Below are positions 4,185-25,356 of a stretch of DNA of 42,830 nt, one piece after another. Under the pieces are notes generated by a model, which saw nothing but the letters and a program-made list of their open reading frames with translations, had not been told where the DNA came from and did no database searches. The DNA is from Candidatus Woesearchaeota archaeon (GTDB taxonomy: Archaea > Nanobdellota > Nanobdellia > Woesearchaeales > DSVV01). Position 1 is the stretch's first letter; the number at the start of each line of letters is the position of its first letter. Position numbers and translations under genes: made by a program. The stretch spans positions 1-42,830 of the forward strand of contig JAGVYH010000006.1 in assembly GCA_018303325.1 (NCBI GenBank), read 5' to 3'.

Positions 4185-4301
4185 TGAGCCATAAGGGATT
4201 TGAACCCTCGACCTTCCGATGTCTTTTGCTGTTTGTGACTTCTTGCGAAAATCACAGCACATTAAGAGTCGGACGCTCTAGCCAGACTGAGCTAATGGCC
4301 C
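4185..4301 (-). tRNA. tRNA-Lys(CTT) with a 42-nt intron
   Basis: On the minus strand the exons give a complete cloverleaf: acceptor GGGCCAT/ATGGCTC with one G-T, anticodon stem TCCGA/TCGGA, loop CTCTTAA with anticodon CTT, and T-arm loop TTCAAAT. The anticodon loop is interrupted after position 37 by an intron at 4221-4262, whose ends can form a bulge-helix-bulge for the archaeal splicing endonuclease. The intron itself pairs TGCTG/CAGCA and TGTGA/TCACA. A TTTAAAAAAG box lies about 40 bp upstream (4335-4344). RtcB, encoded nearby, would ligate the halves. Confidence 0.92.
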
Positions 4302-10141: not shown

Positions 10142-11005
10142 TTAAGAATTAAGTAATTTTTTACTAACCTCTTGGGTTGTAAGCTTTTTTCTCTTATCTT
10201 TTTCTGGCTCTGCTAAACAATTATCAGACACAATTACTGTTTCTCCTGATGCTAATTCAAGATTTTCTCTGGCATCTCCTGCTATCTTTCCACCTTTTTT
10301 TGCTGCATCTTTATTCTCAATAAAACCAAACGCATTCCTGCCTCTGGCAATCTTTGTTGTTGACGCTTCACCAAGCATTGTAAAAATTAGTTCTAAATCG
10401 TTCATGTGATCTCTTAAATTCTCTTTTTTTAGACCTTTGAATTCTTTGTATTCGCTAGGAGTCATGCCAAATGTGGCTTTTGAAATTTCTGATGTTAATA
10501 TTCCATATTCTTTTTCAGTTTTTACATCTCTTTTCTTCCATTCATCAGTAAGTTCATCTCTTATCGCGATACCTCTAACTCTTTTCTCAATCCAATCTTC
10601 AGAATATCCTTTAGCTTTGTAGATTTCCTTCATGCGTTTTTGGGCTAGTTCAGGATTTTGTATTTCTTGGACACGCTCATAACCAACTTGAGCTAGCCAA
10701 AGTTTGAAAGGTTCTGCTTTTGGTGAAGGAATTGATTGAATAATTCTGAATGCCCCTTCTGTATTTACACAGTTCATATTTTGATTACCACCAGATGTAT
10801 TTACAGAAAGGGTATGTACAATTTGTACCCATCCTTTATCTAGCTCTTCATCTCTTTGTTTCATCTTTTGGATATATTGTTTAGGATCACTAGAATCAGT
10901 TAGTACAAAGACAATATCTTCGATTACAAACCACCACTCTTCATTAAACCAAGTCCTTCTAATTTTCTTTCCTTGAAAGACAACCAACGCATTATTTATT
11001 TCCAT
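10142..11005 (-). CDS. BRO-N / DNA-damage-inducible protein D-like protein
   Basis: 287 residues. The N-terminal 110 are a Bro-N type DNA-binding domain: VVFQGKKIRRTWFNEEWWFVIEDIVFVLTDSSDPKQYI, then NTEGAFRIIQSIPSPKAEPFKLWLAQVGYERVQE. The remainder (KGYSEDWIEKRVRGIAIRDELTDEWKKR ... SEISKATFGMTPSEYKEFKGLKKENLRDHM) matches DinD-like proteins of bacteria and phages. Function is poorly known; DinD inhibits RecA filament activity in E. coli, but this copy has no tested role. A TTTATATAG box centred 27 bp before the ATG predicts a leaderless transcript. Probable transfer from bacteria or a virus. Confidence 0.85.
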   Translation of the reverse strand: MEINNALVVFQGKKIRRTWFNEEWWFVIEDIVFVLTDSSDPKQYIQKMKQRDEELDKGWVQIVHTLSVNTSGGNQNMNCVNTEGAFRIIQSIPSPKAEPFKLWLAQVGYERVQEIQNPELAQKRMKEIYKAKGYSEDWIEKRVRGIAIRDELTDEWKKRDVKTEKEYGILTSEISKATFGMTPSEYKEFKGLKKENLRDHMNDLELIFTMLGEASTTKIARGRNAFGFIENKDAAKKGGKIAGDARENLELASGETVIVSDNCLAEPEKDKRKKLTTQEVSKKLLNS

Positions 11006-11209: not shown

Positions 11210-14200
11210 ATGGTTAAATCGCAGAAACAGGAAGAGAAACTAGACTTAACATTTCAAGACCAGACAACAGAATCTGACATAACACCCAACATAACACCCA
11301 ACATAACACCCAACATAACACCCAACATAACACTCAACATAACACCCAACATAACACCCAGCATAGCACCTAACACATCACCCAGCATAGATTCTGTAGT
11401 CTTAGAAAGATTGTGGCACATGATCCCAGATGATGCAAGATTGGAGAATAACCTTCTGTCAACCAGTGGTTTTTCCAGCAAGACAATGAGCGAATGCGCC
11501 TATATGATCTCTAATGAACACCAAGACAGTGAAAGAAGTGTTGCGAATGCAGGCAAAAAATTGGTTTATTTCCTGTTTCCTGACACTACATTTGAATATT
11601 CACTTAATGATGAAGGGGTATTTGTTAAATCTACCAAGAAAAAAATAGACCCTAAACATACATGGACTTTTCATATGGCTAATGACGAAGCTGTATTCGA
11701 CGAGAGAATGGGTTTTTACAATTTATTCTCAGACAAAGAGCATGAAGTGGCAAAATTCCTGCATGTTTTTTCATCTCGATTAGCGCTTTCAACATCTAAT
11801 GAAGAAATCTTACAAGAAATAAAAGAATTTCAAAGAGTAACTCATCTCCCATTTGAAGTCTTAGAATATTTCTATGAAAAAGTAAAACACAGGGATATAT
11901 TCCAAGATTTGCCGTCGACACCAGAGTTAAATAGTGGTAATGTCGATGGTGATTTTTGTTATAATGCCAGTAGGGATTTCATAAATGATATGAGAAGCAG
12001 GCGGTTTGGATATGGCTTCAAAGCTGATGATGAGGGCCTTTTCTCAAAAATTCCAGAGAAAATTCTAAATGGTATATTGGTAGAAGGCGCAGAGGTTGCA
12101 TTAAGGCGGCAAAAAGAAAAGCTTGAACATAGGTTAAAACATTGGGAAGGGATGTGGCCTCCAATTATATATGGCAAGGCATTTGACCCTGAAAGAGTGT
12201 CTACTGACGACAAGATAATTGATTTTTTTCATGAGCTGAATACCGGCATTGATTTCCTTATGCACATGACACCTGATTATAGGCTTGAAGAAAGATATGA
12301 ATTCAAAAAAAGATTGCTTGTTGAAGAGTACAAAAAGCTGTGCAAACAAATTACAATGTCACCATTGATATTCACACATTATGTTCATTCTTATATCTAT
12401 TTCTGTTATCTTACTCATGACAGAGAAGCATTAAAAGAAATGGTTAGTGTATATTTGGACATCTTTCAGCAGAATAGAATTATTGAGAAGCATGAATGGA
12501 ATAAGGTATATCATGGTGCTGCCAGAAATCTTTTTGAGGCTGATGTTTGGGATAGTAAAGATTTAGATTTAGTAAAAACACTTTTGTTCTCATGGAATGC
12601 GATGAAAACAATTGAAAAGAAAGAAGGAGAGAGTGATGACGCAGTAGATTCTTTAATAGAGAAAATAAGAAGTGTAGTAATTAATGATATTATAAAAGAT
12701 CACGTATTAAAAAAGCTGCCTGAAGTCTTTGAGAAAGAAACATACGACCTAAGTAACTTTGATTATATGATGGTTTTATCGCCATTATTGGGTGTGTTAG
12801 GTGATTCTGAATTAGATTATTGCGTTCTGGAAGCAATAGCAAAACAGACATATGGCCATCCAAACAAATTATTAATGGCAGAAATGTATGCAAGCAATAT
12901 CTTAGGCAGGTATTTCTGTCTCCCTAATGAGCCGGTTAAGCAACTCTCAAATTATAATACTCCAATTCGTGTATTATGGGATATTACTACGCAATCGAAA
13001 ACATCAACCAAAGAGCAATTAACTTATTGGCAGCAAAGATTTATTGAGCTATTCAAGCCAATTGCTGATAAAGATGCTGCAAATCCAAATGGATTTAAAA
13101 GTGCAATTGATAGGGCTGAGGAAAGCAATAGGTTTAGAGCAAGGAATAAAGATAATCAGCATGGTGATACCAACCATGATGTCAATCATGACACAACCCA
13201 TGACATCAATCATGATACCAATGATGATGCTCGCAGAATATATCACACTTGGGGTGGTGCATTTCTCGGAGATTATGTTTATTATCATGAAAATCAAAGA
13301 AGATACGCACAGGCGCATCTTGAAAGGTATGATATTGCATCAGCAAGGCGGCATTTTGCAGCCATTGATGAGAAAGTTGATTATTTTGGCTTAGCTTCAA
13401 AAATGCTTGATGATTTAGCTGGTTCAAATAAAAAACATCTTTCTAAAACAAAAATATTAAACTTGGTTAGAAGCTGCACACTCCTAAGGGGGCTTATTAG
13501 TGGCCATAGGACAATGCTGTCAGAATGGTTTTCAGAAAATATATGTGATAATGAAAACCTTTTCTCTAGGGAAATAATAAATATGAAATACAACTCAAAA
13601 TTTCAATTTTCAAAATATGTAGAGGAAAAAACAAAAGCAAATGAGGAAATGGGCGAGGAAATATTTGAGAAGATAATGGAATATGCAAGCAGATTTTACG
13701 ACGAGGATATATTGCTAGCTGGCGGAAAATATTTGTTGTCGAGAAATGAGCCGTTATTTCCATGGCTGAGAGATTTCTGGCCGAATTTTTCCAATATATC
13801 TATTCTAAGGGATAATGAAGATGTTCTCTGCATAGATGAGATGTGTAATGAAGATATAGATATTGAAGGGAATTTTGCTAAAATTGTTTCCAAGCTTAAG
13901 GAAGAAGCAGTTGCATTTATCGAGAAGAAAGAATACGCATATGCACACATGATTTACAGAAAAATCAATCCAAAAAAAGGCAATCAGGAATTTTTAAGAG
14001 AAGTTTATTCGAGAAATCTGCAGGAAGTGCGTTCGGATGATAAAAATGATGGCACAATTGGATTAACTTTTGTTGACGACAAGGGAAAAGAAACAAAAAT
14101 TACATTCCACACACAGTCTCTCGCAGGGTTTGGCTCAGTTGGTGTTGCAAAACATTCTATTACGGTGAATCACGACGGCAAATCTAAAAAAGGGCGGAGA

Positions 14201-15490
14201 GTTATTGTCACCAAAATAAATGATGATGAAAGAATTACAAAAATTGAATATAAAATCTATAATGAGCTTAGAAGCGTAAACCTTTTCAATGTTGCCAAGC
14301 CATTGGCAGTTAACGGCAGGGAGATTGTCGTCGAATATTCTGGACAGACACTTGTTGAATATGCGCAGAGATATATGCAGGAATTTGCACAAAATCCAAA
14401 TCTTGACTTAAACAGGTATATACGCTATTTAGCGGATGCTATCTCCCAAAAAGTTATGATAAACCAAGTGTTATCCTCAATATTGAGCCATGAAGACAAA
14501 GCTTATCTTGAAGAAAGAAGAATTAAAAAAGTGTTGGAGTATTTCAAAGGAAAATATTCTGAGCGTGAAGTTAATGAGCAATATCATGCATTCAGGGTAA
14601 TGCGCGCGTTCGGTTTTGATGATGAAATGTTCAGGGCTGCTTATACGAGAACGATAGGAAAAGCGCTTAGCGCAATCCCTGAAAAATATAAATCATGGTT
14701 AAAAGACAGTTACGGCGCAAATTTTGCTGTTGAGGGTAGTGAACATTTTACAAGTGACAATAAAGACAGCAGTGGAAAAGCAGACGACAAAGTAGCAAAC
14801 AATGGGAACAACAGAGTGATTGTATTTGATTTTAATAATATCACCTATGATGCGGCGCAGCTTGACGACTCAATACTTATTCATACTTATGGTTTAGGAT
14901 TAACTGAAAAAGGAGAAGAGCAGATGCTGAATGAGTGCATGTTGGCAATGAACTTAGACGAGCATGAGTTTGGAGAAGTAACAGACAAAAGGTGCGGATA
15001 CAAAAGAGGGTTTATCCCGGCAAGCGTGCATAGAAACCTTTTGCTCGCAGGAAACATATTAAGGGCAGTTGAATATGGAAGAGCATCTGAAGAAAGAACA
15101 GCAGATGTTGAGCATCATATCAGAAGAAGCATGAGTTATATACAGAAATTTAAAGATATTTTAGGGCAGGAGTATAATGTTGATAAAGAAGATTTAGTTT
15201 ATATTATCAAAACAGTTGAAGCAAGATGCATGACTTATTTTGAACATAAAGGACATAAGAAAACAGAAAGAAAAAGCACAATGGGTGGAAGCATAATAAG
15301 AGGAAGCACAGAGGGAGAGAGCACAATGGGAAGAAGCATAGAAGGAGAAAGCATAGAAGGAGAAAGCATAATGAGAGATGATTCTTATGGTTCTTCTCAA
15401 GGAATTGTTTCTGGCGATAATTTGGGTAATTTAGGAACAAGTTCTAGTTCTATTCACAATTTAGAGTCAACGCTTGGGTTTAGTGAATGA
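11210..15490 (+). CDS. Giant 1426-aa protein with C-terminal protein-kinase-like domain
   Basis: No overall homologue is recognised. Residues ~25-60 are a TPNI repeat encoded by a 12-bp DNA repeat; ~70-640 look alpha-helical; ~650-675 is an NHDT/D-rich repeat; the last ~65 residues repeat GESI/GRSI. A kinase-like core lies at ~950-1260. It has a glycine-rich loop AGFGSVG, RVIVTKI supplying a VAIK-type lysine, a glutamate in KIEYKIYNEL, LKDSYGANF with D and N spaced as in HRDxxxxN, and VFDFNN in the DFG position. All catalytic positions are therefore filled, so activity is plausible, either as protein kinase or as APH-type phosphotransferase. No signal peptide or membrane helix was seen. It follows an AT-rich promoter and is not in an obvious operon. 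Confidence 0.75.
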   Translation: MVKSQKQEEKLDLTFQDQTTESDITPNITPNITPNITPNITLNITPNITPSIAPNTSPSIDSVVLERLWHMIPDDARLENNLLSTSGFSSKTMSECAYMISNEHQDSERSVANAGKKLVYFLFPDTTFEYSLNDEGVFVKSTKKKIDPKHTWTFHMANDEAVFDERMGFYNLFSDKEHEVAKFLHVFSSRLALSTSNEEILQEIKEFQRVTHLPFEVLEYFYEKVKHRDIFQDLPSTPELNSGNVDGDFCYNASRDFINDMRSRRFGYGFKADDEGLFSKIPEKILNGILVEGAEVALRRQKEKLEHRLKHWEGMWPPIIYGKAFDPERVSTDDKIIDFFHELNTGIDFLMHMTPDYRLEERYEFKKRLLVEEYKKLCKQITMSPLIFTHYVHSYIYFCYLTHDREALKEMVSVYLDIFQQNRIIEKHEWNKVYHGAARNLFEADVWDSKDLDLVKTLLFSWNAMKTIEKKEGESDDAVDSLIEKIRSVVINDIIKDHVLKKLPEVFEKETYDLSNFDYMMVLSPLLGVLGDSELDYCVLEAIAKQTYGHPNKLLMAEMYASNILGRYFCLPNEPVKQLSNYNTPIRVLWDITTQSKTSTKEQLTYWQQRFIELFKPIADKDAANPNGFKSAIDRAEESNRFRARNKDNQHGDTNHDVNHDTTHDINHDTNDDARRIYHTWGGAFLGDYVYYHENQRRYAQAHLERYDIASARRHFAAIDEKVDYFGLASKMLDDLAGSNKKHLSKTKILNLVRSCTLLRGLISGHRTMLSEWFSENICDNENLFSREIINMKYNSKFQFSKYVEEKTKANEEMGEEIFEKIMEYASRFYDEDILLAGGKYLLSRNEPLFPWLRDFWPNFSNISILRDNEDVLCIDEMCNEDIDIEGNFAKIVSKLKEEAVAFIEKKEYAYAHMIYRKINPKKGNQEFLREVYSRNLQEVRSDDKNDGTIGLTFVDDKGKETKITFHTQSLAGFGSVGVAKHSITVNHDGKSKKGRRVIVTKINDDERITKIEYKIYNELRSVNLFNVAKPLAVNGREIVVEYSGQTLVEYAQRYMQEFAQNPNLDLNRYIRYLADAISQKVMINQVLSSILSHEDKAYLEERRIKKVLEYFKGKYSEREVNEQYHAFRVMRAFGFDDEMFRAAYTRTIGKALSAIPEKYKSWLKDSYGANFAVEGSEHFTSDNKDSSGKADDKVANNGNNRVIVFDFNNITYDAAQLDDSILIHTYGLGLTEKGEEQMLNECMLAMNLDEHEFGEVTDKRCGYKRGFIPASVHRNLLLAGNILRAVEYGRASEERTADVEHHIRRSMSYIQKFKDILGQEYNVDKEDLVYIIKTVEARCMTYFEHKGHKKTERKSTMGGSIIRGSTEGESTMGRSIEGESIEGESIMRDDSYGSSQGIVSGDNLGNLGTSSSSIHNLESTLGFSE
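11275..11394 (+). repeat. In-frame 12-bp tandem repeat (AACATAACACCC)
   Basis: About nine copies of the 12-mer AACATAACACCC, the last ones degenerate, encode iterated (N/S)-(I/T)-(T/A)-P. Because the unit is a multiple of three, copy-number change keeps the frame, so the N-terminal linker could vary in length between strains. Confidence 0.85.
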
Positions 15491-25232: not shown

Positions 25233-25356
25233 TCCCCGCAGGCGGACTCGAACCGCCAACCTTTCGGTATTGGCTGGGTACTTTTCATTCAAGCAAGTAA
25301 ATTGCAATTCAAAGCACCATCTACAGCCGAACGCTCTACCATTGAGCTATGCGAGG
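25233..25356 (-). tRNA. tRNA-Tyr(GTA) with a 52-nt intron
   Basis: Minus-strand exons form a cloverleaf with acceptor CCTCGCA/TGCGGGG. C1-G72 is the archaeal identity pair for tyrosine. Anticodon stem TTCGG/CCGAA and loop CTGTAG-A give anticodon GTA; T-arm loop is TTCGAGT. The intron (25269-25320) lies after position 37, as in canonical archaeal introns. A TATA-like AATATAAAAAC lies about 30-38 bp upstream of the 5' end. Confidence 0.93.

Follow-up and report, generated by a model that had tools for sequence, protein, structure and literature searches.

A giant kinase-like protein of a Woesearchaeota archaeon and its recurrent tail-to-tail neighbour, an AbrB/PhoU-like regulator

The DNA analysed here (the window) comprises 42,830 nucleotides of contig JAGVYH010000006.1 (assembly GCA_018303325.1) from a Candidatus Woesearchaeota archaeon. 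On its forward strand, an open reading frame (ORF) at 11210-15490 starts with ATG, contains no internal stop and encodes a protein of 1426 amino acids, hereafter the giant, which is single-copy within the 1.97-Mb genome. The giant is predicted to be a large helical scaffold, probably tetratricopeptide repeat (TPR)/solenoid-like, ending in a strongly diverged domain with a likely kinase fold. Its gene is probably one member of a fast-diversifying kinase-like set that lies tail-to-tail with genes of an AbrB/PhoU-like regulator, the giant being the kinase arm of a regulatory pair. This pairing is found in Woesearchaeota and in one neighbouring order and is common in these archaea.

The preliminary description of this DNA had placed a complete kinase-like signature at about residues 950-1260. 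All of the motifs were located as described, between residues 973 and 1209: G973-F-G975, K1002 (in VTK), E1013, D1166-SYGA-N1171 and D1207-F-N1209. In an alignment of 11 relatives, with domain identities to the window protein of 21-87%, the catalytic Asp D1166 was kept in nine; G330 lacks it, and in G343 it is displaced. The invariant Gly of this alignment maps to a non-loop Gly in the window protein, which reflects an alignment shift. Since K1002, E1013, N1171, D1207 and F1208 were invariant in all of these remote relatives, the motifs are more than chance resemblances.

Profile-profile comparisons linked the family to known kinases. The family profile matched a Bud32 set in the helix-C/N-lobe region (P of 3e-7) and a set of TPR-APH proteins from the catalytic loop into the C-lobe (P of 1.9e-7). 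With the enlarged set A11, P was 1.7e-7 over 235 columns spanning both lobes, and Lys, D-x4-N and DFx were each aligned with their counterparts. In the controls, 60 column shuffles gave best P values of 0.05 and 0.13, and reversed alignments gave 0.4-0.55. All 30 PDB chains listed for the A11 profile (E<=10) were kinases or APH proteins, with modest E-values of 0.002-2.2. When the family was searched against the PDB, the aminoglycoside phosphotransferase (APH) 3csv (E of 0.018) ranked second after a designed protein, its catalytic loop and DFx being in register with those of the family. Bud32, RIO and APH enzymes also appeared among the weaker matches when 371 genomes were searched with a profile. 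On the basis of these sequence profiles and the conserved catalytic residues, the prediction of a kinase fold for the C-terminal domain is well supported, as is its membership, in strongly diverged form, of the protein kinase-like (PKL) superfamily with ties to Bud32 and APH-like kinases.

The convergent neighbour of the giant gene encodes an AbrB/MazE-type DNA-binding domain joined to a putative PhoU-like helical domain (AbrB-PhoU; Table 1). The AbrB/MazE-type domain, PF04014, was matched by six of seven regulator members, with 2.6e-8 for this neighbour, and PhoU matches were weak (three of seven members, best 0.006; 0.49 for the neighbour itself). Blast comparison of flanking genes showed that AbrB-PhoU lies beside the kinase-like gene in G309, G181, G159, G330, G157 and G222, and that no other neighbour is common to these loci. 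AbrB-PhoU was downstream and convergent in each of the 16 family members whose context was readable, namely the window, these six, G001, G296, G297, G294, G343, G106, G111, G006 and G334; a 17th member, in G160, has its context cut by a contig end and is not counted. It was immediately adjacent in 14 of the 16, mostly at -40 to +20 bp from stop to stop, and one ORF separates the two genes in G001 and G181. None of nine Bud32, RIO and APH enzymes from the same profile search had an AbrB-PhoU neighbour.

The pairing was also seen from the side of the regulator. Of 353 genomes of the order, 322 carry at least one AbrB-PhoU homologue and often several, and the surroundings were read for 73 loci, picked by AbrB-PhoU match and mostly best-scoring. 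A convergent 3-prime neighbour was present for 68 of 77 AbrB-PhoU genes and for 160 of 468 other genes; the median gap was 7 bp in the former and 42.5 bp in the latter. By profile search, kinase-like proteins made up 21 of 63 convergent neighbours, 1 of 61 5-prime neighbours and 5 of 687 other genes, the first of these counts leaning upward because convergent neighbours were themselves among the search seeds. Pfam alone, which is free of this circularity, assigned APH to eight and Pkinase to two of 49 convergent neighbours, and among the 25 Pfam families listed for 49 5-prime neighbours there was no kinase. A simple D-x4-N...D pattern was rejected as a kinase detector, since its count in the convergent neighbours (13 of 49) was too weak against shuffled sequences (mean 4.3, maximum 13), and it was replaced by the profile searches. 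The motif was also recognised by eye in about 10 of about 21 convergent partners from a second order of the class. Separately, a Lrp/AsnC ligand-binding domain was found in 12 of 49 5-prime neighbours of AbrB-PhoU in the sampled loci (A10) and is a second recurrent neighbour.

The kinase-like partners fall into several mutually undetectable clusters: the giant's family, TPR-APH proteins, compact APH proteins, eukaryote-type kinases and singletons. A second pair exists in the genome of the window (L165, contig 32, 6001-9256), where AbrB-PhoU converges with a 763-aa protein that has TPR-like repeats and a kinase-like C-terminus (NKDAHPENW...IIAIDWDE) and is conserved in G001 (L174). A further convergent partner, of 972 aa in G330 (L177:3074-5989), has a hydrophobic segment and another domain after its APH-like domain (MHGDLFPVN...IDWNDAKYG).

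Such pairing might be positional rather than functional, with AbrB-PhoU simply residing at convergent gene ends of compact genomes where kinases are frequent neighbours. This is rather unlikely: AbrB-PhoU does converge with genes of many kinds in 88% of cases, but the kinase-like enrichment is confined to that single position, the reverse search from the kinase side was uniform, and the partner subfamily follows the regulator phylogeny. On the AbrB-PhoU tree, partner classes required 16 changes as compared to 32.8 after shuffling (none of 200 shuffles as low), although loci with a giant-family partner were partly chosen for that partner and near-copies help the clustering. The regulator of the window falls in a starred clade of seven, all of which are paired with the giant's kinase family. 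The specificity of the pairing exceeds what chance would give, and the partner varies together with the regulator; we therefore infer that a kinase-like signal protein is functionally linked to a regulator of transcription.

Some of the convergent partners are not kinases. PHP-like phosphoesterases take the place of the kinase at L118, L123, L125, L114, L161 and L175 (Pfam PHP in 4 of 49, the remainder called by eye), and an inositol-monophosphatase family protein is also among the convergent partners. Together with the APH-like character of the nearest C-lobe profile matches, these would fit an APH/choline-kinase-like small-molecule kinase that phosphorylates a metabolite, the product being sensed by the regulator through its PhoU-like domain. 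This reading is unlikely in that metabolite kinases rarely have very large helical scaffolds, and eukaryote-type protein kinases (best E of 1.2e-29) occur twice among the other partners. A toxin-antitoxin-like or conflict module with a kinase toxin and a MazE/AbrB-type antitoxin, comparable to HipA/HipB, appears improbable. The MazE-type domain, the several copies per genome and the rapid partner turnover are in its favour; the genes nevertheless converge and do not form a co-directional operon as in HipBA, the regulator of about 300 aa carries a PhoU-like domain and is far from sporadic, the partners include many giants and housekeeping genes, and no PADLOC match was convincing.

Several observations weigh against the giant as the kinase arm of a regulatory pair. 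The giant, searched directly in Pfam, NCBIfam, PHROG, PADLOC and the PDB, gave no match above cut-off and no significant kinase-family match, and the Pfam APH model PF01636 was unmatched by the window protein and by five relatives. A confident structure model was not obtained, as AlphaFold2 run with only two sequences gave a mean pLDDT of 36.5 for the kinase domain and 34.6 for the N-terminus. A gap of 222 bp separates the two genes in the window, a small ORF intervenes in G001, and genes arranged tail-to-tail do not form one operon. AbrB-PhoU converges with some gene in most cases whatever the kind of that gene, and at least half of its convergent partners are not recognisable kinases (PHP, GatB, S9 and others); these may be undetected kinases, other phospho-enzymes or unrelated genes. 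In addition, the genomes are related, so that p-values are overstated, and loci were taken by AbrB-PhoU score.

Departures from the kinase canon belong to the same side of the balance. The HRD/HGD histidine and the DFG glycine, typical but not universal for the PKL superfamily, are replaced in the window by WLKD and DFN, and both are variable among relatives. With the catalytic Asp lost in one relative and altered in another, and the DFx Asp missing in the distant relatives L043 and L047, some members of the family may be pseudokinases. The giant itself might be a pseudokinase scaffold that has kept the kinase fold and perhaps ATP binding and acts by binding AbrB-PhoU or another partner, without phosphotransfer. 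This is somewhat doubtful, given the strong constraint that keeps K1002, E1013, D1166, N1171 and D1207 in the window protein and most relatives; moreover, APH-like kinases likewise lack the DFG glycine.

If the giant is the kinase arm of a regulatory pair, its helical part would bind a partner or ligand, and the kinase domain would bind ATP-Mg via K1002/E1013 and N1171/D1207, D1166 probably serving as the catalytic base. The state of the kinase might then be passed to AbrB-PhoU by direct binding or by phosphorylation, either of the regulator or of a ligand recognised by its PhoU-like domain, and the regulator so signalled would change transcription. The direction of the signal and the substrate are guesses. 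Unlike an operon, the convergent layout would allow separate control of the two genes, with antisense effects where they overlap. More tentatively, the tail-to-tail pairs, each consisting of a fast-evolving kinase-like sensor and an AbrB-PhoU, could constitute a paralogous signalling system with a role comparable to that of histidine-kinase two-component systems; the giant would be its large-scaffold form, and overlapping gene ends may add antisense coupling.

The same-genus genome G001, from a groundwater Woesearchaeota metagenome-assembled genome (JACQSP010000074.1), encodes a 1492-aa homologue with 78% identity. A search with residues 900-1350 in 353 genomes of the order yielded a homologue of 1158 aa in G309, of another family, with 31% identity over the full length and 41% in the best segment, together with remote relatives. 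These relatives, about a dozen from Woesearchaeota, are smaller (370-640 aa) and share the C-terminal domain. No relative was found in searches of phages, plasmids and viral contigs, which thus gave no sign of a viral or plasmid origin. A BRO-N domain protein, of a family common in viruses, adjoins the giant gene in the window (10142-11005, reverse strand) and likewise in G001.

Tandem Repeats Finder recovered three arrays in the ORF, all in-frame (Table 1), in agreement with the three tandem repeats described before; in a full-length alignment, the G309 relative lacks them wholly or almost wholly. The spacer between N1171 and D1207, earlier described as a polar stretch of about 35 residues, is 35 residues long in the window, longer in the sister species G001 and short in full-length G309. 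Its 27-residue polar insert is 63% identical in G001, with a dN/dS ratio of about 2 from few changes, i.e., without detectable constraint, and is apparently unconstrained. Missing or variable between G001, G309 and the window, the repeats and inserts are thus lineage-specific linkers. The repeats were rejected as part of a functional core owing to their absence from the G309 homologue, and the insert was rejected as an active-site feature, being lineage-specific and apparently unconstrained. After the hinge inside its kinase-like domain, the homologue in G001 has a NPNLNPNP repeat of 40 residues (L005:12984-13115) that the window lacks, an instance of new repeat growth in the linkers of this genus.

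Between the window and G001, constraint was strongest in the hairpin at residues 890-946 and in the kinase N-lobe (93% identity, dN/dS of 0.07) and weaker elsewhere (N-terminus 0.14-0.17, tail 0.63). The all-helical prediction for the N-terminal 890 residues comes from the low-confidence AlphaFold2 model. The N-terminal 900 residues had been called unrecognised, which holds for residues 61-889, where Pfam, PHROG and PADLOC gave no match, but not for the hairpin, which looks TPR-like. Weak matches to PADLOC HamB and Pfam FliJ were dismissed as chance hits of helical stretches, and a PDB match to circumsporozoite protein was set aside as it stems from a low-complexity PN-rich linker.

The giant had further been tentatively ascribed a signalling or host-interaction function in a small-genome archaeon. 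The genome is not especially small for DPANN. Signalling remains plausible in view of the conserved AbrB/PhoU-like neighbour, while neither the protein nor its relatives showed anything pointing outward. A host-interaction factor of an episymbiont, as a large repeat-bearing protein in a DPANN archaeon might suggest, is very improbable: the kinase core and the regulator pairing are conserved, no secretion or surface feature was seen, and the repeats are absent in G309.

Table 1. Features of the giant gene and its convergent neighbour (window coordinates; residues refer to the giant).
Feature	Coordinates	Strand	Remarks
Giant kinase-like protein gene	11210..15490	+	Open frame; full-length homologues L005/L062 (78%), L026 (31%)
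Tandem repeat 1, 'TPNI' N-terminal linker	11277..11389	+	12 bp x 9.4; shorter in G001, absent in G309
N-terminal region, residues 61-889	11390..13876	+	Predicted all-helical; no known family; conserved in G309; dN/dS ~0.14-0.17
Tandem repeat 2, 'NHDT/DINH' loop within helical region	13165..13228	+	12/24 bp; mostly absent in G001, absent in G309
TPR-like helical hairpin, residues 890-946, just N-terminal to kinase-like domain	13877..14047	+	Best-scored helices in both models; 95% identical in G001, dN/dS 0.07
Glycine-rich loop LAGFGSVG, residues 972-979	14123..14146	+	G973, G975, S976 kept in three full-length proteins
K1002, VAIK-type lysine	14213..14215	+	Invariant, 11 relatives
E1013, helix-C glutamate	14246..14248	+	Invariant, 11 relatives
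Catalytic loop D1166-SYGA-N1171	14705..14722	+	WLKD, no HRD/HGD histidine; N invariant; D missing in G330, shifted in G343
Polar insert (residues 1175-1201) separating DFN from catalytic loop	14732..14812	+	Lacking in G309 and the majority of relatives; G001 has a longer one
D1207-F-N, DFG position	14828..14836	+	D1207, F1208 invariant in 11 relatives
Tandem repeat 3, 'ESTMGRSIEG', C-terminal tail	15263..15378	+	15/45-bp unit; tail dN/dS 0.63
Convergent neighbour, AbrB/MazE-type DNA-binding domain and PhoU-like helical domain, 321 aa	15713..16678	-	Pfam MazE_antitoxin 2.6e-8

Elsewhere in the window, Rfam identified tRNA genes at 25233-25356 (reverse strand, 124 nt) and 4185-4301 (reverse strand, 117 nt) that ARAGORN missed; both probably contain introns.

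Signal transduction in DPANN archaea is little known, and a recurrent, orientation-specific link between kinase-like proteins and a regulator offers a concrete, testable candidate system. Tying unrelated kinase-like proteins to one regulator family gives an otherwise unannotated giant a context, and the convergent neighbour of AbrB-PhoU provides a genomic handle for kinases missed by sequence search. In the open-access full-text literature, no paper joining AbrB or a kinase with PhoU and Woesearchaeota was found, and AbrB-PhoU in archaea received a passing mention at most. The end-to-end gene arrangement suggests a kinase-regulator pair that is widespread in these tiny archaea and has not been described before.

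Known systems resemble the pair in part. In HipA/HipB a kinase also adjoins a DNA-binding protein; HipBA, however, is an operon with a helix-turn-helix antitoxin, whereas the pair of the giant is convergent and its regulator combines AbrB with a PhoU-like domain. Bacterial PhoU acting on the PhoR kinase likewise links a PhoU-like protein with a kinase, PhoR being a histidine kinase and PhoU lacking a DNA-binding domain. The small archaeal kinases Bud32 and RIO align with the giant in the helix-C/N-lobe region, but they have about 200-270 aa, intact HGD/HAD and IDFG or IDFS motifs and no AbrB-PhoU pairing; the giant differs in motifs and size from the Bud32 family, which is defined as small single-domain kinases with GAEA, HGD and DFG motifs. 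APH/choline-kinase-like phosphotransferases (PF01636, PF02958) share the D-x4-N loop, IDF/FDF without the DFG glycine and a long helical stretch from hinge to catalytic loop, and 3csv and 6sui align in register. In contrast to these enzymes, the giant has no Pfam match and no HGD histidine, about 120 residues from hinge to catalytic loop and a giant helical N-terminus. Proteins that combine TPR with an APH-like domain in the same archaea (A11, e.g., L165) differ in that several have apparent membrane segments and identity is too low for pairwise detection, but they too consist of helical repeats followed by a kinase-like domain and, in most cases, have a convergent AbrB-PhoU neighbour.

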